A stretch of DNA of 64,000 nt from Tomocerus qinae (Eukaryota; Arthropoda; Collembola; Entomobryomorpha; Tomoceridae), in the NCBI GenBank assembly GCA_020055645.1, contig CM034546.1, forward strand, positions 82,026,001 to 82,090,000, given 5' to 3'. Made by a program: the position numbers and the translations under genes. A model generated the notes under the pieces. That model was not told the origin of the DNA. It worked only from the letters and a program-made list of their open reading frames with translations, and searched no databases. Shown here piece after piece: positions 24,958-59,126 of the stretch (positions are counted from its first letter, which is position 1; every line of letters starts with the position of its first letter).

Positions 24958-25108
24958 AAAATAGTTTCCATAGATTTGGAAATCGTTTCCAAAGACTTGG
25001 AAAGAGTTTCCAAAGACTTGGAAAGAGTTTCCAAAGACTTGGAAAGAGTTTCCAAAGACTTGGAAAGAGTTTCCATAGACTTGGAAAGAGTTTTCAAAGA
25101 CTTGGAAT
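24958..25108. repeat. Foldback arm, inner minisatellite (left)
   Basis: About seven 21-bp units GGAAAGAGTTTCCAAAGACT(T). The unit is a dyad (GGAAA..TTTCC; CTTTGGAAA). It cuts into the gypsy integrase at about 25109. Confidence 0.9.
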
Positions 25109-28100: not shown

Positions 28101-28518
28101 CCGAAGTGAGCCCGAACACAAACTGATCTCGAAGAGAGATATCAAGGCCACCGAACTTGCACGTAACTGCTAACTTACGTAGTTCGGCCAAAAACAACGT
28201 GACACTTTCCCCAGGCTGCTGCTTTCGACAGTGGAACCGGAAACGTTCAGCGATAGCCTTAGGAGCTGGCTTAAAATGTTCCTGCAACTTTTTAATTAAC
28301 ACATCCAAATCTTGAGATTCGGGTTTGTCCGGAAAAACAAGATCGTGGAGAATTGTGTATGTGGAGATGCCTATAGACGACAGGAAGATAGAACGACATT
28401 TATCCTTCGCCTTGGCGACGTCGATGTCGTTAGCGATGAGATAATTCTGCAAAATACCCACCCACGATTCGAAATCGTCACTTGTTGGGTTAAACGAATT
28501 TAACTTCCCAACCGGCAT
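25109..28518 (-). CDS. Ty3/gypsy Gag-Pol polyprotein, C-terminally truncated
   Basis: One uninterrupted frame from ATG at 28518 (MPVGKLNSF). In order: Gag capsid; two zinc knuckles (CPNCGKDHSKSDC and CFKCSKTGHFSKYC); protease (ELDTASGTSF); RT with FIDD in place of YxDD (SSFIDDVICSG, about 26795) and QGIASSPAIFQ; RNase H (ISCDASSVGLG); integrase zinc domain (HDTHPGIV..CAEC); and DDE core (HIDLAGPF, SDNGPQF, NGEAERF). The frame then leaves homology after VTPHSTTGYYS and reads on through the Foldback inner minisatellite (SFQVFGN repeats) to a stop near 24955. The integrase C-terminus and 3' LTR are missing, so the copy cannot be autonomous. The intact frame indicates recent capture or insertion. 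Confidence 0.92.
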
Positions 28519-29616: not shown

Positions 29617-29811
29617 TACTTTAATTACATCTAAATTAAAAAAATTACTTCTTTTAAAGAAATTACATCTAAATTAACAAAATTACTTCTTTTAAAGAAA
29701 TTACATCTAAACTAACAAAATTACTTCTAAATTGTAAAAAATTACATCTAAATTAAAAAAATTACTTCTAAATTTAAAGAAATTACATCTAAATTAAAAA
29801 ATTACATCTAA
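29617..29811. repeat. AT-rich minisatellite, left part
   Basis: Units of about 20 bp (AAATTACATCTAAATTAAA), continuing to the right of the giant LTR element at 48572-49437. The retroelement inserted into one array. Confidence 0.88.
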
Positions 29812-30536
29812 TGTAACGCATATAATTATACGGAGTACTATAGAGAGAGAGTGTGTTTATAAATGTAAGTAGTGACACTAGGGATATGTATTATACTACT
29901 GTGTGGTAAGACACGAACTCAGGTTTTCATGACCGGCCAGTCATTTTAATGTACTTTAATGAAATTCTATGAACATGTTGCCGGACACTGTATGTTATAT
30001 AATATTACTTTATATGATGAATCTGACTCTACCATGTATTATACTGACTCTACAATGTATTAAGTGTATTGTAATTTTGAGTGTTTCCTTAACCATTGTG
30101 GATCCCTACTCTGACCCTTTGTACGACGAAGCGAGCGAGAGTGAGCCGAGTACTACGAGCAGAGACGACAGAAGTTTACAAAAGCCAGCCCCGGAGCCCA
30201 CAACCGTTGGAGTCTACCGAATCCAACTTCTCGCTCACTACTCAACCTCTCTGCCCTTTCCTCTCTCTATTATATTGTCTCCCAACTTTATATCATACAT
30301 CCTTATATCCCATTCAACATCTTCCTACTCTGTGAACTAGACAGCTTAAATAAAAGGACACTTCAATTTGTCCATAAAACCCAAATCGTTTCCCATTGTA
30401 TCTCACTTTATTTATTTTAATAACTATTTCAAAGTAGACCGACTTGAGGTAGAACCCGACCGTAATTCGCAAGCATCCTCTTTAGTTTGTCCCTAAATAA
30501 CCATTTATTTTACACCACACACACCTAAGGATGACA
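29812..30536 (+). repeat. 5' LTR of the giant element (725 bp)
   Basis: Starts TGTAACGCATATAATTATAC and ends CACCTAAGGATGACA. A poly(A) signal AATAAA is at 30349-30354. Differences from the 3' LTR are one each in the GA run near 29846, near 30339 (C/T) and near 30420 (A/C). Confidence 0.95.
29969..30340 (+). other. 123-codon open frame inside the LTR (both copies)
   Basis: An ATG-started frame with a hydrophobic first half (IILLYMMNLTLPCIILTL) and an acidic middle (DPYSDPLYDEASESEP). It is intact in both LTRs (29969 and 48004), but the LTRs are nearly identical, so this adds little. It could be an LTR-encoded accessory gene, as in some retroviruses, or chance. It recurs as a 79-codon frame in another register. 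Confidence 0.25.
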
Positions 30537-30537
30537 T

Positions 30538-30555
30538 TGGTGGCTCCGTGAGTGG
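30538..30555 (+). promoter_or_regulatory. Primer binding site of the giant element
   Basis: TGGTGGCTCCGTGAGTGG starts one base after the LTR. The TGG start fits complementarity to a tRNA 3' CCA. It overlaps a good splice-donor match, GTGAGT (30548-30553), which could serve the spliced env message. The tRNA is not assigned. Confidence 0.65.
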
Positions 30556-30705
30556 TTCTACTACTTGAAATAATACTTCCTTTACTTCTTTTCTAAAAAT
30601 CCTATCTTACCCCAGTGTCAAAATTACTAAGACTCCAGTAAAAGTTACAAAGAAACTTAGTTGGTTTTCGTGCCTAAATGCACTTAGACCCCATTTCGGA
30701 TTAGA

Positions 30706-30873
30706 ATGATGTGTGTCCCCGTAAATCTAACGTGTATTTTAGTCTTAGCCATTACCATATTCTTAGTTGCAGCTAGCGTATATTTATTTCAAGAGAGCGA
30801 CAATATACTAAAGATAGTTAAGGGTCAAATTGAGCGTTTCTCGGAGTTAGCTAAACAGCAAAGAGAGGATTAG
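30706..30873 (+). CDS. Small single-pass membrane protein ORF in the leader (55 aa)
   Basis: The frame starts MMCVPVNLTC and runs through one strongly hydrophobic segment (ILVLAITIFLVAASVYLF) into a charged tail ending KQQRED, then stops. It lies between the PBS and gag, where LTR elements usually have no gene. N-out/C-in topology with an NLT glycosylation site is possible. It may instead be a leader peptide or uORF regulating gag. No homologue is recognised; shortness limits confidence. Confidence 0.45.
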   Translation: MMCVPVNLTCILVLAITIFLVAASVYLFQESDNILKIVKGQIERFSELAKQQRED

Positions 30874-31498
30874 GTAGACTCCCCGTCCGAGAAATTATTC
30901 CACCAAAAATACAATAGATAGAGAAAAGCAGAAAGAGAAAAGAACTTCTAAGATTTTCAGGGCATTTGATCTATAAGTATTACCTGGATGGCTTGCGCGG
31001 ACAGGTACTAAATGCTATGTATAAACATACATTGTTAGATCAGGCAGGTACAAGAGGTTTTACAGGTCATAGTCTGAAAATAAGAAGTCGAAGATAATCA
31101 AAAAGTAAAATTGAAAGAAAATGAATTAACATAAATAAATGAAACCGCAATAGTGCGAAATAATTGAATCCGCAATAAGTCAGAAAATTGGGCGCCGCAT
31201 AAGCCGCCATATCCACATATCTGAATACATATCTGAATACGTATAAATAAGACAATGAATTAACATAACAATATCTGCACAGTTGCAAAAAATAAAAGTG
31301 GAAAACAATGATTTAACATAAAATATCGGCACACAAGTTGCAAAGATTGACACTACAATAAGACGGAAAAATAAGAAAATAATACGTGGAAAATGTAAGA
31401 CAATCATAAACTAAAAGACACATTACACACACAAACATATCACTACATATTCCTTAATTTAAAAAGTTTCCTTGGTACCTTCCTTAATCACAATAAAC
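30874..31498 (+). other. Leader between the small ORF and gag
   Basis: About 620 bp without a plausible gene. It contains donor-like sites ACAG|GTACT (near 31003) and GGCAG|GTACAAG (GT at 31048-31049) that could pair with the env acceptor, and presumably carries the packaging signal. Confidence 0.4.
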
Positions 31499-33031
31499 AT
31501 GGATTCCTCGGACGAAATTTTAGATGATAGTTCTTTAGAATTACAGATAAATAGAATGGAGAGTGTACTAATGGTAAGAACTCCAATCCCTACATCAACC
31601 CCAATACATACAAGGCAGGATAGACAGTCAGATCGGCAGCAAGCGGATGATGAAATTTCAGACATTGAACAAGAAGAAGAATTACCTACATATAGCAAAT
31701 ACCAAGATGATTTTTCATCTCCAGAAAATAATAGAAATCACAGATCACAAATACCCAAGAATAAACCTTGGAAACCAAGAGAAAGAATACAGAGATCGGT
31801 GCAAAACGCATTATATGCATTGAAACCTACTAGAGCTGTAGTACAGCCACAAAAATTTTCCGGAACTAATGAGTTAGATGCTGACGACTGGATGTTAAAA
31901 TATGAGAGTGCGGCCGCTGCAAATGGCTGGACAAACGAAATGATATTATTACAATTTCCTGCATATTTAATAGGGGAAGCGCTAAACTGGTATAATTGCT
32001 TTAGAGCCGAACGTGCAAGAGAACAACAAGGACATGTCTTGTTGGGATTAACACTATTCACATGGAGTGAATTGAGAGAACAATTTCTACAAATGTTTAG
32101 CGAGACAAAAGCATGTCCACTCGCAATTGAGTCTAGAATAAGACATATGAGACAAAGACAAGGAGAATCTTGTATGAAATATATGATAAAAATAGAACGT
32201 TTAAATAACCTACTAGATCCATGGATGACCGATGATCAAAGAATTAGAAATATATGTATGGGACTGAATAAAGAAAATATGCAGACATTAAAATTAAAAC
32301 ACCCGACTTCCATTGCGGATTTGAAAGAGTTATTCAAAGGAGCAGATGACGTCGATGCGATGTACAATCAAATAAATACTACTGAAACAAAGGCAATCAC
32401 ACTAATCGGAGTAGAAGAACGAGTACCAAAGAAAGTTTCTTTCAAAAATGACCGACAATCACGGGTAAATGAGAAAAGTCCAGACTTTTCTTATATGGAA
32501 AGGAGACTTGAAGAAGTAGAAAATACATTAAGAATGATGAGAAAGCCAAAAAGAGATTTGAGAAAAATTGATCAACCAGAAAATAATCAAGACTCGAATT
32601 GGCGAACTCAAAATACACAACAGCGAAACGATATTCAAGGAAATTCGCAAAGGCAGAATAATGCAACCCAACAACAATGGGCTGAGAACACGCTAAATAA
32701 TGCATACACAACTCCACCACGGTTCTCTAATCAAAGAAGATTTCCACCAAGAAATAATTTTCAACAAATAAGGAATGTTTTTCCGCAAAATAGATCAAAT
32801 TTCTTACCAGCAAGAAACAATTACAACCGAGATAACCAAAGGGTTCGGAGAGAGTTTGTTGACAGAAATTATGCTTATTATAATCAGAATAGAGACCAGG
32901 ATGGAGAAGGCAGAGCAAATCAAGACAAAAGGCCTTTAAACTTAGAGGATCCAGCTTTAAGGGGCCCATTGCTGGAGACTCCGATTATGCCCCAAAGAAA
33001 CGAGACATTTTCACAGAAACAGTACCAATAA
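31499..33031 (+). CDS. gag: Gag of the giant LTR element (510 aa)
   Basis: Starts MDSSDEILDDSS at 31499; an in-frame TTG 27 nt upstream is not a likely start. The centre matches a Ty3/gypsy capsid domain: KYESAAAANGWTNEMILLQF, YLIGEALNWYN, FTWSELREQFLQMF and a later MRQRQGESCMKYM (residues about 115-260). The last 170 residues are rich in Arg, Asn and Gln and contain no CCHC zinc knuckle, so nucleic acid binding is presumably by the basic tail, as in some errantivirus-type Gags. The 3' end contains the frameshift heptamer TTTAAAC in phase with gag. The product should assemble the particle. Confidence 0.9.
   Translation: MDSSDEILDDSSLELQINRMESVLMVRTPIPTSTPIHTRQDRQSDRQQADDEISDIEQEEELPTYSKYQDDFSSPENNRNHRSQIPKNKPWKPRERIQRSVQNALYALKPTRAVVQPQKFSGTNELDADDWMLKYESAAAANGWTNEMILLQFPAYLIGEALNWYNCFRAERAREQQGHVLLGLTLFTWSELREQFLQMFSETKACPLAIESRIRHMRQRQGESCMKYMIKIERLNNLLDPWMTDDQRIRNICMGLNKENMQTLKLKHPTSIADLKELFKGADDVDAMYNQINTTETKAITLIGVEERVPKKVSFKNDRQSRVNEKSPDFSYMERRLEEVENTLRMMRKPKRDLRKIDQPENNQDSNWRTQNTQQRNDIQGNSQRQNNATQQQWAENTLNNAYTTPPRFSNQRRFPPRNNFQQIRNVFPQNRSNFLPARNNYNRDNQRVRREFVDRNYAYYNQNRDQDGEGRANQDKRPLNLEDPALRGPLLETPIMPQRNETFSQKQYQ
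32935..32941 (+). promoter_or_regulatory. -1 ribosomal frameshift heptamer TTTAAAC
   Basis: T|TTA|AAC is in the gag reading phase, and a -1 slip enters exactly the pol frame. That frame is then open to 33063, with the gag stop at 33031 in between. UUUAAAC is one of the most efficient known X-XXY-YYZ slippery heptamers. A downstream pseudoknot was not worked out. Confidence 0.75.
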
Positions 33032-33066
33032 GGGTATTTCATGTAGACTTCTTATTAGAAAAATGA

Positions 33067-36000
33067 ATTAGATTACCATGTACACTAAATGGAAAAAGTT
33101 CATTCATACTGTTAGACACTGGTTCAGACATAAATTTAGTGGATAAAGATTTGCTAGACAAAGAAGTAATAAGACAGACAGATCATATAGCCAAAATTAA
33201 AGGAATTCACCCAGAACCAATAGAAACAAAATTAGAAGCAGACCTAGCAATAGACCTGGGTCCAATTAAATTTAGATGCACAGCTTACGTCATTCCTACC
33301 TTAAACTTACCATGTTTAATAGGAAACCATACTATGAGAATGTGTAAGTTACAAATTGACTTCGAGACAAATAGAGTAATTTTCCCAGGTCCTCATCCTA
33401 TACCTATCCCTTATGGAGTACATAAAACGGAGGAGTTTAAATTACTTTTGGAGTCATATCAGCGTAGTAAAATTAGAAATGCCCAGACAGCAGACAGAGT
33501 TGGAGATGATAGACAAATTCCATTAGCAATAAATTCTGATACGATGATACAATGTCAAATTAACGAGTCAGACAATGTGACTACTGAAATTGAAAGTAAA
33601 GTGGAAGACAAGAGTCAACCGACCACAAGTAACCCTAAAGATGACCAAGGGGAAAGCAGAGCTAATAGTACTCAAATAGTACACGAGACAAAGGAGGAGA
33701 GAACTATAGGAGAATGTTATTGTTACGTAGAACATAAATTAAGACCAAATTGTCAGGCACTTATTCCCTTCTACTACTCTTTCAATGTACAGCCGGGTTA
33801 CTACATGTTTCTTCAAAATAATGAACTACAAGCAAAGTATGGATTGCAATTAACATTTATTGCAAGTGAATCTAAAGGAGGAACCCTTTGGGCCTACTCA
33901 GAAACAATGAAAGACATAGTCTTACCAGCCAATTTGCCATTAGGAAAAGTAATTCGATTACAAGACCCAGACGACATAACAGTTGAAGAGACTTGTCTAG
34001 CAATCACTCAAGAACAATTGTCAGCATCTATAAATCCAAACTTAACCGAAGAACAGAAGCAAGAGTTAATTGGATTTTTAAAGGAACATGAAGATGTATT
34101 TTATGAGAAAGGCTCGATTCTTAAACCATCTAAATTGAAATGTGACCAAATTAAATTAAAACCATTCGCTCAACCTAAAAGAATGCTTCCTTATAGAACT
34201 TCTGAATTAGAAAGAAAAGAAATTAGACGACATGTAGACGAGTTACTCAGGCAAGGTGTATTAAAGAAAACGAGCTCTCCCTACGCGTATCCCGTAATAT
34301 TAGTAAACGACGGTCATAAGACAGGAGGTAATACAAAAGCTGGAAATGTCACTACGACTAGACTATGTTGTGACGTACGGAGACTAAATCAGTTATGTAT
34401 TGCAGACGTTTTTCCTCTGACAAGCCAAGAGGCTATGACTCAAGCAATGAGAGATGCACCCTTTAAAACTCCGTTGGACTTAAAGAAGGGTTACCATCAA
34501 GTCACATTAGACGAGCACTCCCAACAATTGTGCACTATTATTACTGAAGATGGAACTTACGCGCATACTAGGCTTCCGTTTGGCTTACAAACTGCCCCGG
34601 CTATTTTCCAAAGATTATTAATAACAACATTTGGAGATCGTGTCAACAATTATGTACAAATCTATTTGGACGACATAATTATCTATTCAAAATCCTTTAA
34701 GGAACATATGACACATTTACGGGACGTGTTTGCACTAATTAGAGAAAAAGAACTGACTCTCAATGGAGACAAATGTGGCTTCGCTCACGACAGAATAAAA
34801 TTATTAGGCTTTTACGTAAGTACTAAAGGCATAGAATCAGATCCTAAGAAAACGGATGTTATTCGATCATTACCTCCACCTAAGGATTGTAATGAACTGA
34901 GAAGATTCATGGGAATGGTAAACTATCATAAATCATTTATAAAGGACTTTTCGAATATTTCGGCTCCTTTAAACAAACTAACGACTAAAGACTCTGAATT
35001 AAAATGGACAGATGAAGCACAAAAGGCTTTTGAAGAATTAAAAAGATGTCTTACAAACCCACCTATCTTGGGATACTTTAAATATGGATATGAAACAATG
35101 CTAGCAGTAGGTGCTGTCCTATCTCAAATACAAGAAGGAAAAGAGCGAGTAATAGCTTATACAAGTAGAGGGTTAAATAAAGCCGAGAGAAGGTATTCAA
35201 CTACGGAGAGAGAATTCTTAGGCATTTTACATGCTCTATCTCAGTTCCGACCTTATCTCTACGGTATTAGATTCACAATTCATTGTGACCATCAGCCAAT
35301 TAGTGGATTTAACTTTGGAAGAACAAAGAAAAATGTTAGATTGCAGAAATGGGCAGTTGAAATTAGCGATTTTAACTTTAAAATAAAATTTACACCAGGT
35401 AAATTAAATTTAGAATCGGACTTTCTTTCCAGAATACTTTCGACAGGAGAACAATTTACAGTAGAGCAATATGAGGCTGATAATAGCATCTTTACAAAGA
35501 ACATCATCTCAGAAAACATAGAAACTGAAGTAGATGATTGTGACCAGAAAACAGCTCTAGTTACAACGGTTATACCGGAATCATTTGGAGATGATATTAG
35601 TATTTTGCAAACAAAGGATAATTTCTGTAGAGAAGTAAGCAGAAAACTAAAATTAAGAGATGAAAAAACAGCCAAAAGATTTATAGATGAAAATCAACGA
35701 CTGTATTTTATTAGTGGAAATACACGAAAGTTAGTTCTTCCAAGAACGTTACTGAGAACAGTATACGAAAATTTTCATGAATCACCATTTGGAGGACACA
35801 GAGGCATTGACACAACGTTGGAAAAAATTCAAAACTTTTATTATGTACCAAGATTAAAAAGATTCGTAACTAATCATGTTAAATCGTGTATTACATGTAT
35901 GAGAACAAAAAGACCAATACGGAAAAGGCAAGGCACTTTAGGATCAGTAGAAGTACCTACATATCCATTCCAATGTATACAGATTGACTTTACTGGACCA

Positions 36001-37896
36001 CTACCAGAGACAGCTCAAGGGAATAAGTATATATTAGAAGCAATTGATATATTCTCTAAATTCGTTATACTAAAAGCAACAAAAGATCAAACAGCTGAAT
36101 ACACCGCAAAATTAGAAGACATAATATCCAAGTTTGGTTGCGTGGAAATAATATACAGCGACAATGGACCAGCTTTTCACTCACAAGTATTGCAAGAGAC
36201 AGAGAAATTAATACGAACAAAGCATAAGTACTCTGGACCTTACCACCCTCAGTTTTCTGGGAATGTTGAAAGGACGATGGGATTAATTAAGTCAGTATTA
36301 ATAACAGTATTGAATACACAACACCATGAATTGTGGGATAAAAATATATGGAGTGTAGTGTATGTTATAAACACAAGTAAATCGAGCACTACAAATTTCT
36401 CCCCTTTCGAAATAGTGTACGGAAGGAAAAATCTATTTCCTATTGACCTTCAACTATTACCAGAGATTGATAGCGATAGAGAACAAGAGTGGAAGAAAAT
36501 GAGGCAAATTAGACATATAGTACGAATGAATATAGAGAAAGCGAAACTGGAAAGGAAAACACGACATGACGAAGATCATATAAATACATCATACGATTTA
36601 GGACAACAAGTGTGGTTGTACAGTCATTTAACTCCTCGAGGGGATAATAGAAAATTGGTGAAACGATGGGAAGGTCCCTATATTGTTATCAAACGATTGT
36701 CTGATAGACGATATGAGCTGAAACAAGAAGCAACAGGAAAGAAGAAAGAATCTCACATTTCATTCATGAAACCAAACTACGAACTAGACAAGGAAGAAGA
36801 GTGGGGAGATTGTATAGTAAATCAATGGATAGACGAAACAGCTGAATTACTAACCTCTTTACTAGACGAAAAGTCTCTGCTTGACTTGATGCAAGCATGG
36901 GAAATAAGTCCGAATATTCTTTCTTCGAATCCAAAAACACCGTATAATAAGGCCGAATACATGACAATTGGAAATTTTAAAGAATTATATGAGTTATTAA
37001 TGCACATTTTAAGAAAAAATATAACAGTTATTATCCGAGTAAATCAAGTTTTACCAGATTTTACAACTTCAATGTTAAATCAGATCCGTACAGAAAATTA
37101 TTGGGAAAGAAGCGAAATCAAAGTAAAGGGTAAATTAATTTTACAAGATGAAAAATTGCAAATATACAAATTAAATATTACAGAACCATTTTGTACAAGA
37201 GATGTACTATGGGTAATCTCTGATAAAAATGTTCTAGTCGAAGACAACAGTATAATAAAAGAACAAACATTACCATCGGTAATTACAATATTAAAATACA
37301 TGGATACGGAACATCGAAACTATATAATGTTGATAGCGGAGAATACAATCACAGATGAATATTATATTGGTAAAGGGATTCTTATATTACTAAAACTGAA
37401 TGATTACAAAGATATTTGGCCAACATTGAAAGATATTTGTGTGAGATTCCATCAAGAAGATAAAAATTTCTTCACAGAAGCGAAAGCGTTTAAAATTCTA
37501 GCACAGCTAATATTTCACTACGCAAAATTTGTCTATAATATGAATAAAGAGATTACTACAAACAAAGAACAAGACTTAACAGGAATGGAATTTACAGAAA
37601 ATTATGAATCAGACAGCTCGGACGAGGAAATGTATACACCAACAGTATCTCTAAGCCCAATAAGAGATCTTCAACTTGATATCAATTCCCCTATTCCTGA
37701 CAATACCCAAGGACATTCATCTGAAGAACGCAGTTCAGTGATCCCCTCAGAGATAATTCCTTCCACTTTACCAGAACCAATTGATCCTACTAGCCGTCCC
37801 CCTAACCGTAATGAAACACTTATACAAACTCAAATTAGGAGAGGAACAAGAGAAAGAAGGAGACCTAAATATCTGGATGACTATGTACTTAATTGA
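33067..37896 (+). CDS. pol: Pol of the giant LTR element: PR, dUTPase-like, RT, RNase H, IN, long C-terminal extension
   Basis: The frame is open from 33067 to the stop at 37896. It has a protease (FILLDTGSDINLVD, 33103-33144) and a linker with a dUTPase-like stretch (about 33739-33965). RT has LDLKKGYHQV, LPFGLQTAPAIFQ and the catalytic IYLDDIIIYS (about 34660). RNase H has ERVIAYTSRGL and HCDHQPI but lacks the first catalytic TDxS segment. Integrase has the HHCC domain (HESPFGGHRGI..CITC), DFTGPL, SDNGPAF (about 36160) and GNVERTM (about 36260). A region after the GPY-type module then runs about 370 residues with no recognised domain and ends in an Arg-rich tail (RRGTRERRRPKYL). An in-frame TGA at 33064 separates it from the frameshift site. 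Confidence 0.92.
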   Translation: MRLPCTLNGKSSFILLDTGSDINLVDKDLLDKEVIRQTDHIAKIKGIHPEPIETKLEADLAIDLGPIKFRCTAYVIPTLNLPCLIGNHTMRMCKLQIDFETNRVIFPGPHPIPIPYGVHKTEEFKLLLESYQRSKIRNAQTADRVGDDRQIPLAINSDTMIQCQINESDNVTTEIESKVEDKSQPTTSNPKDDQGESRANSTQIVHETKEERTIGECYCYVEHKLRPNCQALIPFYYSFNVQPGYYMFLQNNELQAKYGLQLTFIASESKGGTLWAYSETMKDIVLPANLPLGKVIRLQDPDDITVEETCLAITQEQLSASINPNLTEEQKQELIGFLKEHEDVFYEKGSILKPSKLKCDQIKLKPFAQPKRMLPYRTSELERKEIRRHVDELLRQGVLKKTSSPYAYPVILVNDGHKTGGNTKAGNVTTTRLCCDVRRLNQLCIADVFPLTSQEAMTQAMRDAPFKTPLDLKKGYHQVTLDEHSQQLCTIITEDGTYAHTRLPFGLQTAPAIFQRLLITTFGDRVNNYVQIYLDDIIIYSKSFKEHMTHLRDVFALIREKELTLNGDKCGFAHDRIKLLGFYVSTKGIESDPKKTDVIRSLPPPKDCNELRRFMGMVNYHKSFIKDFSNISAPLNKLTTKDSELKWTDEAQKAFEELKRCLTNPPILGYFKYGYETMLAVGAVLSQIQEGKERVIAYTSRGLNKAERRYSTTEREFLGILHALSQFRPYLYGIRFTIHCDHQPISGFNFGRTKKNVRLQKWAVEISDFNFKIKFTPGKLNLESDFLSRILSTGEQFTVEQYEADNSIFTKNIISENIETEVDDCDQKTALVTTVIPESFGDDISILQTKDNFCREVSRKLKLRDEKTAKRFIDENQRLYFISGNTRKLVLPRTLLRTVYENFHESPFGGHRGIDTTLEKIQNFYYVPRLKRFVTNHVKSCITCMRTKRPIRKRQGTLGSVEVPTYPFQCIQIDFTGPLPETAQGNKYILEAIDIFSKFVILKATKDQTAEYTAKLEDIISKFGCVEIIYSDNGPAFHSQVLQETEKLIRTKHKYSGPYHPQFSGNVERTMGLIKSVLITVLNTQHHELWDKNIWSVVYVINTSKSSTTNFSPFEIVYGRKNLFPIDLQLLPEIDSDREQEWKKMRQIRHIVRMNIEKAKLERKTRHDEDHINTSYDLGQQVWLYSHLTPRGDNRKLVKRWEGPYIVIKRLSDRRYELKQEATGKKKESHISFMKPNYELDKEEEWGDCIVNQWIDETAELLTSLLDEKSLLDLMQAWEISPNILSSNPKTPYNKAEYMTIGNFKELYELLMHILRKNITVIIRVNQVLPDFTTSMLNQIRTENYWERSEIKVKGKLILQDEKLQIYKLNITEPFCTRDVLWVISDKNVLVEDNSIIKEQTLPSVITILKYMDTEHRNYIMLIAENTITDEYYIGKGILILLKLNDYKDIWPTLKDICVRFHQEDKNFFTEAKAFKILAQLIFHYAKFVYNMNKEITTNKEQDLTGMEFTENYESDSSDEEMYTPTVSLSPIRDLQLDINSPIPDNTQGHSSEERSSVIPSEIIPSTLPEPIDPTSRPPNRNETLIQTQIRRGTRERRRPKYLDDYVLN

Positions 37897-37910
37897 AACA
37901 AGATATTTAC

Positions 37911-37930
37911 GATCATTTTATTACTTTCAG
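37911..37930 (+). promoter_or_regulatory. 3' splice site directly upstream of env
   Basis: GATCATTTTATTACTTTCAG is a pyrimidine-rich tract ending in AG at 37930, immediately followed by the env ATG at 37931. This is the arrangement expected for a spliced env message. It lies 15 bp past the pol stop. Confidence 0.75.
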
Positions 37931-38230
37931 ATGCAGAGATTATTGATTCTACTAGCAACTTGCGTTTGCTTCGGCAAAAGTCAAAATTCTACAATTATGA
38001 TTACTATTTCACCCGGATTTTATTCATTGGAACTTGAGAATACGATAATTTATGAAGGATCGGCTATTTTACATTTCAACATACCTATGTTACACCTTCC
38101 AAGGAAATCAGGTTTTCTTAATTACTCAAAGAAATACAAATGTGCAGGAAAGGATCTTCATTATTTTACGAGTACGTATTTGCAGTCGATACTTATACGA
38201 ATGCATTATATAGACAACGAAATGCACTAG
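37931..38230 (+). CDS. env: Env-like gene, N-terminal part (signal peptide)
   Basis: ATG at the splice acceptor gives MQRLLILLATCVCFGKSQNS, a good signal peptide, followed by an ectodomain-like region to KKYKC. After about 38145 this frame loses sense and stops at 38230, while the next frame carries the rest of env. An earlier non-ATG start at 37781 overlaps pol and is not credible. Either a single-base indel or another expression device separates the two parts. Confidence 0.7.
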   Translation: MQRLLILLATCVCFGKSQNSTIMITISPGFYSLELENTIIYEGSAILHFNIPMLHLPRKSGFLNYSKKYKCAGKDLHYFTSTYLQSILIRMHYIDNEMH

Positions 38231-40437: not shown

Positions 40438-40672
40438 ACAAAATTAACACAAAATTTACATATTCTGCTTAGTAACAATTTGAGTTGTTGTCTCGTGATG
40501 TAATTGTCTAGAAGTAATTGTAACTGTATGGTGAGCTCTTGTCGTACACTAAAAGATGAATCATATTAATAAATACCTATAACTACTTGCAGTGACATAC
40601 GCACATACTTTTATCACCGACCAGTTTAAAAATTTGGAAGAATTAATAATTTCAAAATTCAAGAGCATCTCT
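40438..40672 (+). other. Env-accessory intergenic region with possible splice acceptor
   Basis: Contains CTATAACTACTTGCAG|TG at 40590. The downstream frame is open from this AG, so a spliced message ending in A could create an ATG at the junction. No gene of its own. Confidence 0.3.
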
Positions 40673-40873
40673 ATGTTATCACCAAAAGATCTAGATGTCA
40701 ATTCATTTTTATGTGGACAATTTTCTTGTATTGTGCTAATTACATTAATTATAATCTTATCCTGTATTTGGAACATTTTTGAACGTGTATTAAGTATAAA
40801 AGAAGTAAAAGTTACACCTGAATCAGTATATCCACCTCCACCACCGGAATTTAATGAAGAGAGTCCTATTTAA
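40673..40873 (+). CDS. Accessory ORF A: small membrane protein with Pro-rich tail (66 aa, or 93 if spliced)
   Basis: From the ATG at 40673: MLSPKDLDVNS, a hydrophobic segment (CIVLITLIIILSCIWNIF), then a cytosolic-type tail VTPESVYPPPPPEFNEESPI. The frame is open back to the AG at 40591, which would add 27 residues. The YPPPPPEF run recalls proline-rich late-domain or SH3/WW ligands but is not an exact PPxY. Function unknown; type III or tail-anchored small viral membrane proteins are the closest analogy. Confidence 0.6.
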   Translation: MLSPKDLDVNSFLCGQFSCIVLITLIIILSCIWNIFERVLSIKEVKVTPESVYPPPPPEFNEESPI

Positions 40874-40888
40874 ACGAGGTTCAACACA

Positions 40889-41224
40889 ATGAGTAATAAA
40901 ACAATTACGTGTAATCTTGACCTTAATCAACAAGGAGACGTAAGCTGGATCGAAGAATTCTATCAAGCAGCTTTGGCTAATAATTGTTCAAAACCTTACA
41001 CTACATCGACTCCTGAAATTAATATTCCCATTATGCAGACACCTTTAGAATTGAAAATCTTAGTTATTTTATTAATTGTGTCAATTTCATTAATGATGCT
41101 AGGACTAATTTTCCAAGTCTACCGAGCTAGACGAGCAACTTCAATTTTCTCAATATCACCAATACAGTCTGTTCCTATTCCTAGAGCAATGAATCACCGT
41201 CATATAATTGAAAGGAGAGTATAA
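40889..41224 (+). CDS. Accessory ORF B: single-pass membrane protein (111 aa)
   Basis: ATG 15 nt after ORF A. The N-terminal part has two N-glycosylation sequons (NKT, NCS) and no signal peptide. A long hydrophobic segment (LKILVILLIVSISLMMLGLIF) is followed by a basic cytosolic region (YRARRAT). The N-out/C-in layout resembles type III small viral membrane proteins. It ends TAA at 41222 and the next ATG follows after one base. No homologue is recognised. Confidence 0.65.
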   Translation: MSNKTITCNLDLNQQGDVSWIEEFYQAALANNCSKPYTTSTPEINIPIMQTPLELKILVILLIVSISLMMLGLIFQVYRARRATSIFSISPIQSVPIPRAMNHRHIIERRV

Positions 41225-41225
41225 T

Positions 41226-41687
41226 ATGTTGTCAACTACACTATTCTATAACTACCAAATACGTTTATACTTGAAGTTTACGGGACAGCTCTCGAGTTAT
41301 AAAATAAACTATATAACTAGAACCAAATTACTTATTATCAGTCATATGAAACCTGCTATACCAGCTGGGGAAAACCCATTAAGCGTGATTTATACTTATG
41401 CGTGGGTGAGGTATTTGACAAAAGGACTTCTACAATTTGAAAGAACTTTCAATTGGACGGATGATTCGTGTAGTAACCTTATACGTCAAAATTTCCACTT
41501 GAATGAAAAAATTGAAAAAGACATTTCAATTCAGTTTAATATATTAGGGACTCCACAAAGACCGATTTACGCCTGTTATTTACAAAAGGGACAGTTGTAT
41601 ATTGTTCAAATTACAAAACTATTAATGTTTGCCATTCCGAAGAGACTATTGCCAGACCCTCCAAATAGACTTCAAATACAATACTAA
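41226..41687 (+). CDS. Accessory ORF C: unknown protein (153 aa)
   Basis: Starts MLSTTLFYNYQIRLYLKFTG at 41226, one base after the ORF B stop (TAATATG). It is a mixed, basic protein with motifs YAWVRYLTKGLLQFERTFNW and PIYACYLQKGQLYIVQI, possibly a small beta-rich fold. There is no membrane segment or signal peptide. Not recognised. Its tight linkage to ORF B suggests coupled translation. Confidence 0.65.
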   Translation: MLSTTLFYNYQIRLYLKFTGQLSSYKINYITRTKLLIISHMKPAIPAGENPLSVIYTYAWVRYLTKGLLQFERTFNWTDDSCSNLIRQNFHLNEKIEKDISIQFNILGTPQRPIYACYLQKGQLYIVQITKLLMFAIPKRLLPDPPNRLQIQY

Positions 41688-41738
41688 GTGAACTTTAAAA
41701 TTTGTAACATCAGAAACTGAAAAGCAGTCCTATTCAAA

Positions 41739-42743
41739 ATGCGGTTGCGACCACGTCACGCACACCTTCAGGAATTGAAAAGAAGATTCCCAGGAAGTGA
41801 GTCGTGTTGTATCGACGATAGTGTCTTGGAAGCAGAAGATTTATATCTAGTTGCCAAACAATTACAGAAAACAGTTCGAGTTGGTAGTACACTACCTAGA
41901 GTGAATTGGATTAACGCAATTAATATCGTGAACCAACATATTCATGCCGTGTTCCCAATTTTTAATGCACTCTATAAGATAACGATCAGTGGACAATATC
42001 AAAAACAATTGTTATCATCTTGGAATTTCGAGTTTACTCCAGTAGCGGATATATGCTACTACGTAGCATCATTTTTCAACCATCCATTGTCTTTTGACAA
42101 AGAGTGTGTCATTTTAACTGCAAGTCAGTTTGGAGAAGTATTCTACAAAGGTTTAGAAAAACTTCAGATTGCCGTCTCAAGAGTCAATACAGAGTGGTTT
42201 TCTTTGTTATATAAACTTTATTGCATTTATGCTCTAGGCAATAGGCACATACTTCCTTCTTCAACGATCAGTTCAAGTTCACAAGTGCTCTCTATTTTAC
42301 ACTTATTATTGGAATTGTCATTCCCACCTATTCCTACAACTGAACTTACACTAACTTCGATTGATATTATCAGATTTTTATTAAGAAATTATACAACCAC
42401 AAAAGCAAGAAAAGTGAACCAGTTGCTTATTGACGCAGTTACAGGTTATGGAGTAGAGGACAATCCTCTCTACTTCCATCGTTTAAATCTAATTGCTGGA
42501 CTTTATATGCAAGAAATTAAACAGCAAGGAAATATAACTCCCGCCGGAACGAGCCTGGGAAGACTCTTAATTATAACCAAAGTAGAATACCTAAATGAAA
42601 TTCAATTAATACCCGGAGGGACCCCAAGAGACGTGCACACTCGTCTGTCATCAATTAATGAATTTGATGCACTTCTAAAGTTTTACGAGCCAGGTCCACC
42701 CTTTAACACTAATGAGTTGCTAACAATTACAATTGATCACTAA
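41739..42743 (+). CDS. Accessory ORF D: member 1 of a three-gene paralogous family (334 aa)
   Basis: ATG at 41739 (MRLRPRHAHLQ). Predicted mostly helical, with no signal peptide or membrane segment. Shared features with ORFs E and F: a V-x-W motif (VNW, residues 55-57), a hydrophobic block about 70 residues later (ILTASQFGEVFYKGL), and a Y-x-I-Y segment (YKLYCIYALGN, about 158-168). The ORF ends TAA one base before the ORF E ATG. No known domain is recognised. A soluble, possibly structural or RNA-binding role is only a guess. Confidence 0.75.
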   Translation: MRLRPRHAHLQELKRRFPGSESCCIDDSVLEAEDLYLVAKQLQKTVRVGSTLPRVNWINAINIVNQHIHAVFPIFNALYKITISGQYQKQLLSSWNFEFTPVADICYYVASFFNHPLSFDKECVILTASQFGEVFYKGLEKLQIAVSRVNTEWFSLLYKLYCIYALGNRHILPSSTISSSSQVLSILHLLLELSFPPIPTTELTLTSIDIIRFLLRNYTTTKARKVNQLLIDAVTGYGVEDNPLYFHRLNLIAGLYMQEIKQQGNITPAGTSLGRLLIITKVEYLNEIQLIPGGTPRDVHTRLSSINEFDALLKFYEPGPPFNTNELLTITIDH

Positions 42744-42744
42744 G

Positions 42745-43731
42745 ATGCAGCGGACTCAGAGATTAACCTTTAGTTGTTCTATTAGAGACATTAAAAAGAT
42801 TTATTGTAATAAAACTACTTATGTGTCAAGCAAATATCAATTAAATACTAAAGTCGCGTTTTGTGATGTGGACTGGGATACTTTGGAAGCATGGATAAAA
42901 AATCATATCCGACATAACCATCAACTGCTGCACGACCTCGTTTACAGCACACTTCGAGGGTCTTCAATTTTGATACAGTGCATAAGTGACTCAGTGTTGA
43001 CAGACAAAAAAGATCAAAGGCTATTACCCTATTACTTTACAGACTATTATAAGGAGAATGTTTCATCGCAATTTTACCTGCCATATAGGGTTTTTACAAG
43101 ATTTGTAAAGCCCTGGATTCAAAGTTTAAACCATTCATTTACTCAACTTCCAGAAGTGGTCAACACTTATAAAATTTATTGTGCTTATCTAACAGGCTCA
43201 AACCAACAAAAGGGCTACATTAAGACTATACTCACCTTTGCTTCAAAACGTACACCAAGGCTATTGTTATTTAACTCTAACGGTTTACAATTATTTCGTT
43301 TTATTCGGTTTATGGTTCAAAAGTCCGTTTGTGAATGGCAACTGGAAATTCTGTACACCATTCTAGTGAAAGTGTGTCAGCAAAATAGGGAATGGCGCCC
43401 TATATTTCAACAAGAAGCGTTCGAGCTGATCTATCAGGTGGAGCTATGCACGCCCTATAGAAATTTGAAAAACACCGATATATTGACCTTATGTCCAGTA
43501 CTACACGATTTGTTAAACACACCAGCACCTACAAAAAGGGAACACTCTGTCTTTCCGACTGACACTATTAACAACACACATGTACTGGAGTTGATTATTC
43601 AAGCGGCGAAACGTCAGTTCTTGTTTAAAACTTTGTCTGCAGCAGAAAAACGGGCCATTAGACAAAAAGTGAGAAAGAATTGTGCGTTTACTGTATCCAC
43701 TACTATGGATAGTGGAACTGATAGCAATTAA
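42745..43731 (+). CDS. Accessory ORF E: member 2 of the paralogous family (328 aa)
   Basis: ATG at 42745 in the junction TAAGATG with ORF D; a TTG in frame 12 nt earlier is less likely. Shared motifs: DVDWDTLEAW (residues 41-50), LLHDLV (61-66), FYLPYRVFTRFVKPW (110-124) and TYKIYCAYLTGSN (141-153). The spacing W44 to LP112 is 68 residues, identical to ORF F. The C-terminal part is basic (RAIRQKVRKN). Helical, soluble, unrecognised. Confidence 0.75.
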   Translation: MQRTQRLTFSCSIRDIKKIYCNKTTYVSSKYQLNTKVAFCDVDWDTLEAWIKNHIRHNHQLLHDLVYSTLRGSSILIQCISDSVLTDKKDQRLLPYYFTDYYKENVSSQFYLPYRVFTRFVKPWIQSLNHSFTQLPEVVNTYKIYCAYLTGSNQQKGYIKTILTFASKRTPRLLLFNSNGLQLFRFIRFMVQKSVCEWQLEILYTILVKVCQQNREWRPIFQQEAFELIYQVELCTPYRNLKNTDILTLCPVLHDLLNTPAPTKREHSVFPTDTINNTHVLELIIQAAKRQFLFKTLSAAEKRAIRQKVRKNCAFTVSTTMDSGTDSN

Positions 43732-43760
43732 ACAGTGTTTAATTTTAAAAGAAGTACACG

Positions 43761-44870
43761 ATGGAGGGGTTAAATAACATCCTAACCACCCATGAACTCA
43801 GTGAACTGTATTGTAAGATTGATACTATAACGAAGAAAAAAATTGTTCATAGTCGTTATCATCCACAACGAGTGAATTTAGTAGAACATCCACTAGTTGC
43901 TGACGCAGTAGACTGGAACATCTTAAGACTTGATTGTCTAGGACATCTAGGAAAGTATCAGGACTTACTACAAGATCTAGTAAAATTAGTGTCAATTAAG
44001 AACTGTTTTCCATTATTGGAATTAGTGCAGCAAGTGCTACAAAAACCAAATGTTTGGGATTACTATGAACCCCAACATTATCTTAAAACTGGATTAAGAA
44101 CATCGTCCATCTTCCTTCCAACTCGTAGGATTGTGCCACGAAAATTGTTTAATAAATTAATACATCTTCTAAGGAAAACCGAAGACATCATGGACTGGAA
44201 GACTGAAGAACTAATACACGACGTGTATTTAATTGTAGTGACAGGGGCTGATAACCCTCAGTTTTCAACGTCCATCAGTAACTTCATCAGTCGATGCATC
44301 TATATGGAACTTAGTTGGACAAACCAAATAAACAGGTCTAAGGTATCAATTGGTCAATATTTAATCTATTTGGATAATCTGACCACTAGTGATGATTATA
44401 AAAAACTGTTAAGAATGTTGATTATAGATATGCTTAGGAAAGATAAAGAAAATAATTATGTAACTAGAGAAGATATATTCAAGAGTCTATATATTCAATC
44501 TAAAATTTATCTAGAACCACAGTCATTAAGTGAAAAAAGAGTGGATTTGGGGATTTTCTTATCATCTCTAACAGATCAAAAACTCATTTTAGATCCTGTA
44601 AGTAGACAGGTAGTGTCTAAAGAAAAAGATTTTCTAAAACCGAAAAACTTAAAAGATCTGCCACTAATAGAAAAAATGAAACAAGTGAGTAAGTTGATTG
44701 TAAAAGTAAATAACATAAACCAAGACGACACCCAAAACGAAAACTTAAGCCTTCCATCTATCTTCCTTCAACGATGTTCTACCGGGACGAAGGATTTATT
44801 TAAAAGAAGGAGCGAGTTAAATCGCACACCAAAGAAGGTTTCCAGGATAGATATACTCGAAGCCTTCTGA
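43761..44870 (+). CDS. Accessory ORF F: member 3 of the paralogous family (369 aa)
   Basis: ATG at 43761, 29 bp after ORF E. Shared motifs: AVDWNILRLD (residues 49-58), LLQDLV (69-74), IFLPTRRIVPRKLFNKLI (117-134) and HDVYLIVVTGADN (153-165). W52 to LP120 is 68 residues and W52 to LLxDLV is 17, as in ORF E. It has an extra C-terminal region of about 100 residues that is basic and Ser/Thr-rich (FKRRSELNRTPKKVSR). Unrecognised and soluble. Confidence 0.75.
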   Translation: MEGLNNILTTHELSELYCKIDTITKKKIVHSRYHPQRVNLVEHPLVADAVDWNILRLDCLGHLGKYQDLLQDLVKLVSIKNCFPLLELVQQVLQKPNVWDYYEPQHYLKTGLRTSSIFLPTRRIVPRKLFNKLIHLLRKTEDIMDWKTEELIHDVYLIVVTGADNPQFSTSISNFISRCIYMELSWTNQINRSKVSIGQYLIYLDNLTTSDDYKKLLRMLIIDMLRKDKENNYVTREDIFKSLYIQSKIYLEPQSLSEKRVDLGIFLSSLTDQKLILDPVSRQVVSKEKDFLKPKNLKDLPLIEKMKQVSKLIVKVNNINQDDTQNENLSLPSIFLQRCSTGTKDLFKRRSELNRTPKKVSRIDILEAF

Positions 44871-45116
44871 GTGAATACCACCAAGAGAGAATATCAATGT
44901 AAAATAAGTTACGAGTGAAGTGTAAATAAATAGTTTAAGCTATGAAAGGAAAAGAAGAAAACCTACTAGTCAACTAATATGGAAGACTGAATCGACCCAT
45001 ATCATGCTGTAAATAGTGGTAAAAATTTAATTCAATATATCTAAATACTGTAATTCAAATATAAAATTTCATTCATGTCATTACTTATAATTAGAATAAG
45101 CATGTGTAAATTAAGG
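44871..45116 (+). other. 3' untranslated part of the giant element before the LINE
   Basis: AT-rich, no frames. It continues after the LINE at 47449-47830. Confidence 0.5.
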
Positions 45117-45130
45117 CCCTTAAGCTTGTA

Positions 45131-47434
45131 GTAGTAGTAGTGTTTTTTATTTCAGATGAGTTTGGCCAAGGCCTTTACATCACATTCAAGATATTTACAT
45201 ATGAATTTTCATTTGTCTGAGATTATATTAGTTATGCTAAAGTTTATCAGTTTCTTTTTTTCTCTGCATTTATCCAAAATGTATAAAGTGTATTTAGCTG
45301 TTGTTTTGACAAATTTCCATAAATATCATTAAAACATAATATATTGTTATTTAATAATTTTTCTCTTAGATTGATATAGCACGGGCAAATGAACATAATA
45401 TGCTCTAGTGTCTCTCTTTCTTCAAGGTTACACAGCTCACATAGCTCACTTATTTCACTGTTGTAGAAATTTTTAAGAACATTTAATTTTACAGTTTTGT
45501 TATGCATTGAGATTTGATTAGCATTAATTTTTAATTGAAAGTAATTTCTAGTTAGGTTCCATGATTGATTCCAATTCAAGTATTCTTGATTGAGAACATG
45601 TGTCTTATGCATAGAGTATCTTATAAAAGTGTTTGATTTTCGCATGGTTGATATATCTACAGTTTGTATATCACTATTGATTCTACAGAGTAATTTGTTT
45701 ATCATAAAATTATATTGTTTTCTCTCCCATAACTCAACATCAATATTAATATACTCATTAATTTTATACTTATCAACTATGTTTTTAAACTGAGTGAACC
45801 AATTATAGTTCTCATATTTCCTAGTGGACTTTTGCTTCAAGGTAATGTAACATTGATAGATTAGACTATCTTTAGACCGATTTACAATTTTTTGCCAGAA
45901 ATTTAGTACAGTTTTTATTAGAAACAATTGGATAGGACGTACTAGAGTTTCTATTCTAAATATCCATCGAGGTGTCCATATAGGTACATTAAATAGCCTT
46001 CTTAGGAAATTCATTTGAAATACCTCAAACTTCTCAAAAAATCTGAGACCCCAGATTGACACACAGTATGTCATTACAGAGCGTATTAACGAATCAAATA
46101 GTTTGTAATGACTAGAGAAGGTTGACATTTTAGATCTATGGAATAGTATGAACAAAGCAGATAATGCACTGTTAGCTCTATCTTTAAAATACTCAAACAT
46201 TTTTTCTTGGTTATAGTGTCCATGAAACGGAATTCCTAGGTATACATAAGAGTTCAATACTTCAATTACCTCATTTTCCCAGTATAGTTTAGGCACAACT
46301 TTCAATAATTTTTCTTTTCTGTATACAACAATTTTAGTTTTACTTAAGTTTACTTTTAAACCATTATCTTTAAGGTACTTAGCTAAAATATAAATTTTTT
46401 CTTGCAGGTATACTGCATTTGTTGCAAATAGAACAATATCATCACTATATAGCAGAGCATGTATATTTAATTTACCTAATTTAATTCCTGATATACCTGA
46501 CTTTTCAAAAGTTTCTATAATATCATTTATATACAGTGTGAATAACTTACTTGAGAGCGTTTCACCTTGCGAAAGTCCAGTCCGTATAGGGAAGAATGAG
46601 CTCTCTCCTAGATGGGTTCTAATTTTCGCTTTAGCACTAGAATAAATATTTTTAATAACTGAGATGAATTTATCACTTAAACCAATCACTCTTAGCTTGC
46701 TCCATAACCTACTTCTTGAGACTGTATCGAATGCAGAAGAAAGGTCGACATAGAGTGCAAATAGCTTCCCTTTTTTAGCAGTTATAGTATTTTGAATTAT
46801 AGAATTCAGATTGAAGACTTGCGTTTCACATCCGAGGCCAGGTCTGTATGCAGCTTGGTATTCTGAGATTTTCTTATTTATTTCACACCATCCGCTTAGC
46901 CTATCGTTCATTATTGATGTAAAGAGTTTTAGAATTGTGTTAGCCAGAGAGATTGGGCGATAATTTTTTGGATCGAGCTTTTCTGCTTTCTTAAAAATTG
47001 GTGAAATTACTATTTCAGACCAGGATGTGGGTGTTTTTTCTTGTCTCCAGTAGCTATTAAAGCAGTCCAGTATACAAAGTCTTAATTTCAGAGATGAAGA
47101 TTTCCAAATCTCATTAGGTAGTGCGTCTTCTCCGGGTGCTTTTCTTGTCGATAGCCTCTTGATGGCATAATTGAACTCGGATAGATTGATTTCTTTATCT
47201 AGCTCTGAAAGGTATATTTTATCGCTTCCTGTCTCATCCTCTTCGTCCTTTTCTTCAGAATAGTATATCTTTTCAAAATGGTCTTTGAATGTGTTGGGAG
47301 TTGGCTGTGTGTTGTAGTTATAATTAGATTTTCTTCGATAATGTGACAGTGCAGCCCAGAAAGCAGGTTTTCTACAATTAGCTAAGTCATTAGTTATTTT
47401 CTCGTAGTATTCCTTCTTGCACTTGTTGCTCATT
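45131..47434 (-). mobile_element. 5'-truncated LINE inserted antisense into the giant element
   Basis: Perfect 14-bp duplications CCCTTAAGCTTGTA (45117-45130 and 47435-47448). On the minus strand it ends with a short CTA microsatellite tail, like some non-LTR elements without poly(A). The 5' end is truncated and the endonuclease is missing, typical of target-primed reverse transcription. Confidence 0.92.
45247..47434 (-). CDS. LINE reverse transcriptase, N-terminally truncated
   Basis: The open frame has RT motifs RKAPGEDALPNEIW, NYRPISLANTILKL, YVDLSSAFDTV, GLSQGETLSSKLFTLYIND and LLYSDDIVLFA (YSDD instead of YADD), then a thumb region and a C-terminal Cys/His motif (CELCNLEERETLEHIMFICP). 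The frame happens to read 26 nt into flanking DNA to an ATG at 47460 that does not belong to the LINE. No internal stop, so the insertion is recent. It resembles Jockey/CR1-type non-LTR RTs; the clade was not resolved. Confidence 0.9.
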
Positions 47435-47830
47435 CCCTTAAGCTTGTATGAACTATCCAAGATAACCTTGCAGGCTTAACATTCTATGCCAACATCTACA
47501 CTTCGGAGTTCATGGCAGGACATTGGATCCGGATTCTGTAATGAATTCCGCGGTTCATAATATTCATGAAATGAGAATCTCATAGAGAACTCACGCAGTG
47601 AAATTATTGTGAGATGGTAGTTAACGGAAGGTTCTTGTAAGTATGGATAATTAATTCAAGTCAGGAATCTATAAGATCAACAAATGTAAAACTGGGTCAT
47701 AGGATAAATAGTTGTAAGAGCAATAAAAATACAAAAAGATTCAAGTAGATTGTGAAAATGTGTTAGATCGCTTTGACCTTAAATTATATGCTAGACTTAT
47801 ACCTATAAAGTTCTCAGAGTTCACTTTAGT

Positions 47831-47846
47831 GGAAAGGAGGGAGTGA
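47831..47846 (+). promoter_or_regulatory. Polypurine tract of the giant element
   Basis: GGAAAGGAGGGAGTGA directly precedes the 3' LTR, as required to prime plus-strand synthesis. Confidence 0.85.
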
Positions 47847-48571
47847 TGTAACGCATATAATTATACGGAGTACTATAGAGAGAGAGAGTGTTTATAAATG
47901 TAAGTAGTGACACTAGGGATATGTATTATACTACTGTGTGGTAAGACACGAACTCAGGTTTTCATGACCGGCCAGTCATTTTAATGTACTTTAATGAAAT
48001 TCTATGAACATGTTGCCGGACACTGTATGTTATATAATATTACTTTATATGATGAATCTGACTCTACCATGTATTATACTGACTCTACAATGTATTAAGT
48101 GTATTGTAATTTTGAGTGTTTCCTTAACCATTGTGGATCCCTACTCTGACCCTTTGTACGACGAAGCGAGCGAGAGTGAGCCGAGTACTACGAGCAGAGA
48201 CGACAGAAGTTTACAAAAGCCAGCCCCGGAGCCCACAACCGTTGGAGTCTACCGAATCCAACTTCTCGCTCACTACTCAACCTCTCTGCCCTTTCCTCTC
48301 TCTATTATATTGTCTCCCAACTTTATATCATACATCCTTATATCCCATTCAACATCTTCCTACTCTGTGAATTAGACAGCTTAAATAAAAGGACACTTCA
48401 ATTTGTCCATAAAACCCAAATCGTTTCCCATTGTATCTCACTTTATTTATTTTCATAACTATTTCAAAGTAGACCGACTTGAGGTAGAACCCGACCGTAA
48501 TTCGCAAGCATCCTCTTTAGTTTGTCCCTAAATAACCATTTATTTTACACCACACACACCTAAGGATGACA
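47847..48571 (+). repeat. 3' LTR of the giant element (725 bp)
   Basis: Nearly identical to 29812-30536, with AATAAA at 48384-48389. It ends GATGACA and is followed by the CTAA duplication. Confidence 0.95.
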
Positions 48572-49437
48572 CTAAATTTAAAAAAATTACAACTACATTT
48601 TAAAAAATTACATCTAAATTTTGAAAAATTACATCTAAATTTTAAAAAATTACATTTAAATTTTGAAAAATTACATCTAAATTAAATAAATTACATGTAA
48701 ATTAAATAAATTACATGTAAATTAAATAAATTACATGTAAATTAAATAAATTACATCTAAATTAAATAAATTACATGTAAATTAAATAAATTACATGTAA
48801 ATTAAATAAATTACATCTAAATTAAATAAATTACATGTAAATTAAATAAATTACATCTAAATTAAATAAATTACATGTAAATTAAATAAATTACATCTAA
48901 ATTAAATAAATTACATGTAAATTAAATAAATTACATGTAAATTAAATAAATTACATCTAAATTAAATAAATTACATGTAAATTAAATAAATTACATCTAA
49001 ATTATATAAATTACATCTAAATTAAATAAATTACATCTAAATTAAATAAATTACATGTAAATTAAATAAATTACATCTAAATTAAATAAATTACATCTAA
49101 ATTAAATAAATTACATCTAAATTAAATAAATTACATCTAAATTAAATAAATTACATCTAAATTAAATAAATTACATCTAAATTAAATAAATTACATCTAA
49201 ATTAAATAAATTACATGTAAATTAAATAAATTACATCTAAATTAAATAAATTACATCTAAATTAAATAAATTACATCTAAATTAAATAAATTACATCTAA
49301 ATTAAATAAATGACATCTAAATTAAATAAATGACATCTAAATTAAATAAATTACATCTAAATTAAATAAATTACATCTAAATTAAATAAATTACATCTAA
49401 ATTAAATAAATTACATCTAAATTAAATAAATGACATC
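48572..49437. repeat. AT-rich minisatellite, right part
   Basis: About forty 20-bp units AAATTACATSTAAATTAAAT, very homogeneous. Units differ mainly by C/G at one position (ACATCTAA or ACATGTAA). The first four units are diverged and resemble the left part. Confidence 0.95.
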
Positions 49438-59118: not shown

Positions 59119-59126
59119 TGTGTGAA

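Follow-up and report, generated by a model that had tools for sequence, protein, structure and literature searches.

A Ty3/gypsy-type element of the springtail Tomocerus qinae with six conserved open reading frames downstream of env

Complex retroviruses (Retroviridae) carry several accessory genes around or after env that are expressed from spliced RNAs, and accessory gene sets of this kind are usually associated with the retroviruses of vertebrates and the defences that these hosts mount. Among the Metaviridae, the errantivirus-type gypsy elements possess a spliced env. Env-bearing gypsy elements are reported to be widespread in metazoans (PMC13172572). Here we report a Ty3/gypsy-type element of 18,760 bp at positions 29812-48571 of a 64,000-nt stretch of the Tomocerus qinae genome (contig CM034546.1 of assembly GCA_020055645.1, positions 82,026,001 to 82,090,000 of the forward strand; hereafter the window), in which gag, pol and env are followed on the same strand by six further open reading frames (ORFs), A to F. 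We read it, with a probability of roughly 0.8, as an endogenous env-bearing Ty3/gypsy (Metaviridae) element of a lineage with a fixed six-gene cassette, in the order A-B-C-D-E-F, between env and the 3′ long terminal repeat (LTR), and as one that would work like a complex retrovirus without being one.

With the errantivirus-type elements it shares a Ty3-type Pol, a downstream env with an R-x-K/R-R site and a hydrophobic anchor, and a target site duplication (TSD) of 4 bp. It differs from them in size, the bounded block-bearing copies measuring 16.7-20 kb, and its pol is 28-35% identical to those of two ordinary env elements of the same genome. The likeness to complex retroviruses lies in the accessory genes around or after env, spliced expression being suggested here by candidate sites; in contrast, the Pol is Ty3-like and not retroviral (best PDB match Ty3 Gag-Pol at 1.8e-98, best retroviral chain 6.1e-26), and comparison of the accessory proteins with known families gave nothing above cut-off. 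The acquisition of extra downstream ORFs is shared with LTR elements of bdelloid rotifers, in which pol is followed by an ORF3 of the env, GDSL, DEDDy or another type, whereas six genes follow a separate env in the present element (PMC5408684). Troyka, an unusual animal gypsy-related lineage, has CG...CG termini and 3-bp TSDs, unlike the TG...CA termini and 4-bp TSDs found here (PMC12440569). Long plant gypsy elements such as Retand share a long internal region but are a plant lineage (PMC11963269). A literature search of titles and abstract openings, with the most relevant survey lying outside its scope, returned no description of such a cassette.

Six ORFs inside bounded elements

The borders and the 18.76-kb length given to the element in the initial annotation of the window hold on closer inspection. 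Two 725-bp LTRs with TG...CA termini (29812-30536 and 47847-48571, both on the plus strand) differ at 3 of 725 positions, and the TSD CTAA stands on both sides (29808-29811 and 48572-48575). A stretch resembling a primer binding site, TTGGTGGCTCCG, adjoins the 5′ LTR at 30537-30560 (plus strand), and a similar TTGGTGGCCCG lies a few bases past the LTR in two other elements. At the other end, a 3′ untranslated stretch (47643-47846, plus strand), which is 79% identical in two env-less relatives, ends in the polypurine tract-like GGAAAGGAGGGAGTGA just before the 3′ LTR.

The six same-strand ORFs that had been noticed after env are likewise present. They occupy 40673-44870 on the plus strand, with successive gaps of 15, 1, 51, 1 and 29 nt: A (40673-40873; 66 aa from its ATG) and B (40889-41224; 111 aa), each with one membrane-spanning-like segment, and C (41226-41687; 153 aa), D (41739-42743; 334 aa), E (42745-43731; 328 aa) and F (43761-44870; 369 aa), all four of which lack such a segment. 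In 1000 first-order Markov simulations of the block stretch the longest stop-free run reached 165 codons, and D, E and F, with runs of 340, 335 and 373 codons, are therefore longer than chance permits. The run of C is 159 codons; A, B and C do not exceed chance by length, and the case for them rests on conservation. All six ORFs are open in a copy that is otherwise damaged, with a stop in the pol frame, an env split over two frames and residues missing from RNase H, defects that the initial annotation does not mention.

Genome-wide searches of the host assembly (334 Mb, 115 contigs) were made with the LTR, D, E, F and the env of a related element (C46) as queries, and A, B and C were sought in the loci fetched. 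The matches numbered 18 for D, 37 for E and 25 for F (80 in total) and, joined where they lay less than 5 kb apart, formed 18 clusters, many of them containing broken pieces: 11 in the order D-E-F, four with E-F, one mixed (C1:22.05 Mb), one with D only and one with a weak E only. Gene context was read in eight of the 18, including those of the window and of C1:139.51. The block follows env in the same order in seven elements, namely the window element, C46, C7, C1:67.78, C10, C1:20.82 and C1:86.67; gag was seen in five of them and pol in all seven, in C1:86.67 as one 64-residue match only. C46, C7 and C1:86.67 have matches to all of A to F. The remaining three (C1:67.78, C10 and C1:20.82) make up a second lineage, with matches to A, C, D, F and, twice, E; their B was assigned by place and length with no BLAST match (111 aa in two of them and 77 aa in the other) and shows 25-26% identity in the two that were aligned. 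In two elements the duplicated E has both of its copies open. Each gene has an open frame somewhere among the copies read, other copies being broken. About 430 nt without a long ORF separate the two E genes in C1:67.78 and C10.

Three of these elements are bounded by TSDs and have TG...CA LTR termini, in agreement with the TG...CA LTRs and 4-6 bp TSDs of Metaviridae. Besides the window element, they are C46 (14678-31331; 16.65 kb), with the TSD CTAA and 2 differences in 569 aligned bp of LTR, and C1:67.78 (67.77-67.79 Mb; ~20.4 kb), with the TSD ATAA and LTRs of ~480 bp. The few LTR differences of the window and C46 copies indicate recent movement. Matching LTR pieces stand at either end of C10, and C1:20.82 has one LTR side matched; the stretches read for C7 and C1:86.67 showed no LTR pair. 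In C1:67.78, ~4 kb without long same-strand ORFs lie between F and the 3′ LTR.

The bounded copies decide against the idea that A to F are host genes, or fragments of them, that surround an ordinary env-gypsy element. At C1:139508319-139510215 an E-F pair, its F frame long and open, showed no match to env, pol, A, B, C or D in the 4 kb upstream, which would suit that idea, and ten of the 18 clusters fall outside the context reading. Yet the block lies inside the LTRs of the TSD-bounded elements and directly after env in all seven elements read; the idea is refuted for the TSD-bounded copies and scarcely credible as a whole.

The A to F proteins of the other copies are 25-63% identical to those of the window. 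Ratios of nonsynonymous to synonymous substitution rates (dN/dS, or ω; NG86 method), computed between close copies for gag and the accessory ORFs, came to 0.03-0.10 in D, 0.21-0.24 in E, 0.22 in its second copy and 0.19-0.26 in F; between C46 and C7 they were 0.30 for A, 0.15 for B and 0.14 for C, and gag gave 0.37-0.53. Because copies with the same gene order occur across the genome, some of them bounded, and ω is low, we conclude that the block is part of the element and evolves under purifying selection, and it was present before the two block-bearing lineages parted. The initial annotation had proposed an LTR lineage with a multi-gene module and had looked to several copies with one accessory gene order and to low dN/dS in the ORFs for its support; the order recurs in seven elements and D-E-F in 11 of the 18 clusters, close copies give ω of 0.03-0.30, and the proposal is supported.

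A rival reading makes the block a passenger, captured once from a host or a DNA virus and functionless for the element. No part of the block has a recognisable family by which such a source could be traced, and copies without the block have also spread recently (LTRs identical or different at 2 of 720 positions), both of which sit comfortably with a passenger. The retention of six ORFs in two lineages at the identities given above, the low ω in close copies and the duplication of E with both copies open in two elements make it very improbable.

Relatives without env and block

Two elements, at C2:5205173-5218695 and C1:47459603-47470072, are 80% (LTR), 75% (gag) and 68% (pol) identical in DNA to the window element, and neither env nor the block was found in them. 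Their LTR pairs, without any difference in one case and with 2 in 720 positions in the other, show that they moved recently, presumably in trans. In a tree of the RNase H-integrase region, built like its alternative from elements of this genome alone, they form a group with the window element at 99/99 that excludes C46 and the C1:67.78 lineage; they are thus nested among block-bearing elements, with two ordinary env elements outside. An alternative pol tree that included two fragments with one stop each gave the same grouping at 100/98. The env-less pair sits on a long branch, which makes its placement less sure.

Catalytic residues have been lost from these copies. In C1:47.46, the one of the two in which the reverse transcriptase (RT) and RNase H sites were read, the motif A Asp, the Asp pair of YLDD and the RNase H Asp are replaced, the protease DTG being intact, and both copies have a substitution at the second integrase Asp. 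Given the long branch, the lost residues and the grouping with the window element, we take the env-less copies as probably derived by loss. The nonsynonymous-to-synonymous ratio by proportion of sites (pN/pS) between the two is 0.26 in the C-terminal part of Pol and 0.71 in the N-terminal part. They may be satellites mobilised in trans whose Pol, though dead, is perhaps still under selection. An origin as mosaics through LTR exchange was considered and dropped on the pol tree.

These copies could also be turned around and read as the normal form of the family, descended from a cassette-free ancestor, with the window element a recombinant that took up a foreign block. They are young, and the identity they share with the window element is higher in LTR and gag than in pol, both of which speak for this reading. 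Against it, they join the window element in the pol tree and leave the other block-bearers outside, albeit on that long branch, and their RT, RNase H or integrase has lost catalytic residues; we hold this reading to be a shade less probable still than a captured passenger. Copies without the block were what the initial annotation had named as speaking against it. Two that share the LTR do exist, but tree and lost residues have them read as derived, and carriage of the block by the element stands.

Accessory proteins and candidate expression

E and F are homologous on profile comparison (hhalign E=6.6e-7), none of 300 shuffles reaching the E-F score. The kinship of D with them is uncertain: the same comparison gave the weak values of E 0.003 (probability 10.5%) for D-F and E 0.041 (1.3%) for D-E, and plain BLASTP detected no kinship among D, E and F. 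We did not accept the D-F value as proof of homology. Of the expanded family seen in the initial annotation, the E-F pair is thus retained and the tie to D is left weak.

Database searches returned no family for these proteins. In Pfam, no member of the D, E and F families and neither B nor C had a match over the cut-off, and a scan of ORF A made on the C1:67.78 relative alone gave no match. PHROGs yielded nothing below E 0.14, PDB searches nothing convincing (best E 0.01, for F), and IMG/VR scans with pol, D and the D/E/F family alignments, using few peptide patterns each, no relatives. Domain matches under the cut-off (AAA_lid_11, Ski7, and Claudin_2 for B) were judged to be chance, as was DUF1687 in three of five D members (best E 0.0042).

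Small single-pass membrane proteins such as A and B would probably act at the membrane, in assembly, release or receptor handling, and C, D, E and F, having no membrane segment, would probably regulate expression or counter host silencing. D, E and F might instead be additional structural or tegument-like proteins of the particle: they are of ~310-390 aa, are kept alongside the membrane proteins A and B, and are packed with them as a module. No solved structure or profile of a structural protein matches them, which is weak evidence, but the F tail of C46 and the second lineage carries K-[EQ]-E motifs, and we take a charged tail of that kind to read more like a regulatory protein. A structural role is the rival we take most seriously, unlikely as we consider it. 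The F proteins of C46 and the second lineage have similar charged C-terminal tails, which F of the window lacks.

Candidate splice sites suggest how the genes could be expressed. A putative donor GT at 31395-31396 (plus strand), chosen on consensus and position, lies 104 nt before the first gag ATG, and donor-like sites lie 107 and 114 nt upstream of the gag ATG in two related elements. A putative acceptor at 37913-37930 (plus strand) ends at the env ATG and scores at the top of 1010 AG sites in 30537-44870; AG/ATG (the slash marking the junction) stands at the env start in all three elements examined. A putative second acceptor of modest score lies at 40591-40592 (plus strand; CAG/TGAC), with the frame of ORF A open from there. 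An AG/TG acceptor before ORF A, with the A frame open from it, is found in four of four elements examined, and the stretch upstream of the first A ATG is similar in the window element, C46 and C7. In C46 and C1:67.78, where an A would be the last base of the upstream exon, the splice would create an ATG.

From these sites we infer a scheme in which full-length RNA would give Gag and Gag-Pol, the donor 104-114 nt before the gag ATG would be joined to the acceptor at the env ATG to yield Env, and the same donor joined to the second acceptor would yield a polycistronic accessory mRNA. As gaps of 1-51 nt separate the ORFs in the window copy, translation of the later ones would probably depend on reinitiation, leaky scanning or additional splicing.

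Several observations weigh against our main reading. A single genome has supplied every copy. In comparisons with the window and between the other lineages dS is mostly saturated and pN/pS is 0.30-0.75, and the close-copy ω values rest on few changes (for A, 2 synonymous and 2 nonsynonymous); the comparison of C1:67.78 with C10 is uninformative, A and B having one nonsynonymous change each and C one synonymous change. Single-sequence AlphaFold models of E and C reached a pLDDT of only 38 and 31. Among the sites in the stretch scanned the donor is best in C46, second-best in the window and third-best in C1:67.78, where the AG at the env ATG also falls outside the two best sites; the second acceptors rank in the top 3%, 11% and 2% when set against the AG sites of the window; and the candidate donor of the window would not create the ATG before A.

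A more specific interpretation, which we put forward tentatively and at somewhat less than even odds, is that these elements form an undescribed branch of animal retrovirus-like elements with an accessory programme of six to seven genes of new protein families, evolved independently of the vertebrate complex retroviruses. Two of the programme's proteins would be membrane proteins and one would be small and soluble, the others making up a set of 310-390 aa each. In some members splicing would itself create the start codon of the accessory mRNA, and the branch would have catalytically dead, env-less satellites of its own that move in trans. A gypsy lineage that keeps six selected extra genes could be used to ask what role they have against silencing by Piwi-interacting RNAs or in cell-to-cell transfer, and whether genomes of the complex retroviral kind have evolved on more than one occasion.

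Gag, pol, env and the surrounding window

The gag ORF (31472-33031, plus strand; first ATG at 31499) matches Retrotrans_gag at 5.2e-9. The pol ORF (33067-37896, plus strand) encodes protease (LLDTGS), RT, RNase H and integrase, in the PR-RT-RH-IN order of Metaviridae (Ty3/gypsy), and a long C-terminal tail. Pfam recognises RVT_1, RNase H, H2C2 and rve; RVP falls under the cut-off, the protease DTG motif being present. The damage to this copy consists of an in-frame stop at 33064-33066, just ahead of the protease, and of seven residues absent at the RNase H TDAS site. The Pol tail extends ~370 residues past the integrase region and is also matched in related elements; it gave no Pfam match above cut-off.

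The env gene (37931-40437, plus strand) is split in the window copy over two overlapping frames, the first running to 38230 and the second over 38122-40437 (stop-free 37757-38230 and 38122-40437), and related elements have open env frames of 826 and 804 aa. It has an R-x-K/R-R site and a hydrophobic anchor, with a signal peptide judged by eye. Env of the window type has no direct Pfam match. C46 env is 26% identical (E=1.5e-23) to another env of the same genome, which itself matches Baculo_F at 4.8e-9; a second distant env (C1:37.09 Mb) gave no Baculo_F match on a Pfam scan. Used as genome query, C46 env returned 49 matches, consisting of the block-bearing elements, a few closer fragments and many ORFs at 20-33% identity. 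Reading of the 3′ flank in two other env elements revealed no comparable cassette.

Downstream of the ORF block lies an ORF of a long interspersed nuclear element (LINE; 45247-47460, minus strand; 737 aa, RVT_1), an insertion foreign to the element proper. Outside the element, another gypsy-type pol ORF occupies 24955-28518 on the minus strand, with 21-bp tandem repeats alongside at 28.8-29.2 kb, and a long 20-bp tandem array lies just past the 3′ LTR at ~48.6-49.6 kb. Farther downstream are a Reprolysin (M12B) metalloprotease ORF (55940-57475, minus strand), possibly a host gene, long tandem arrays with repetitive ORFs in several frames (57960-58620 and 59039-59885), and a fragment of a Pao-type retrotransposon peptidase (61923-62777).

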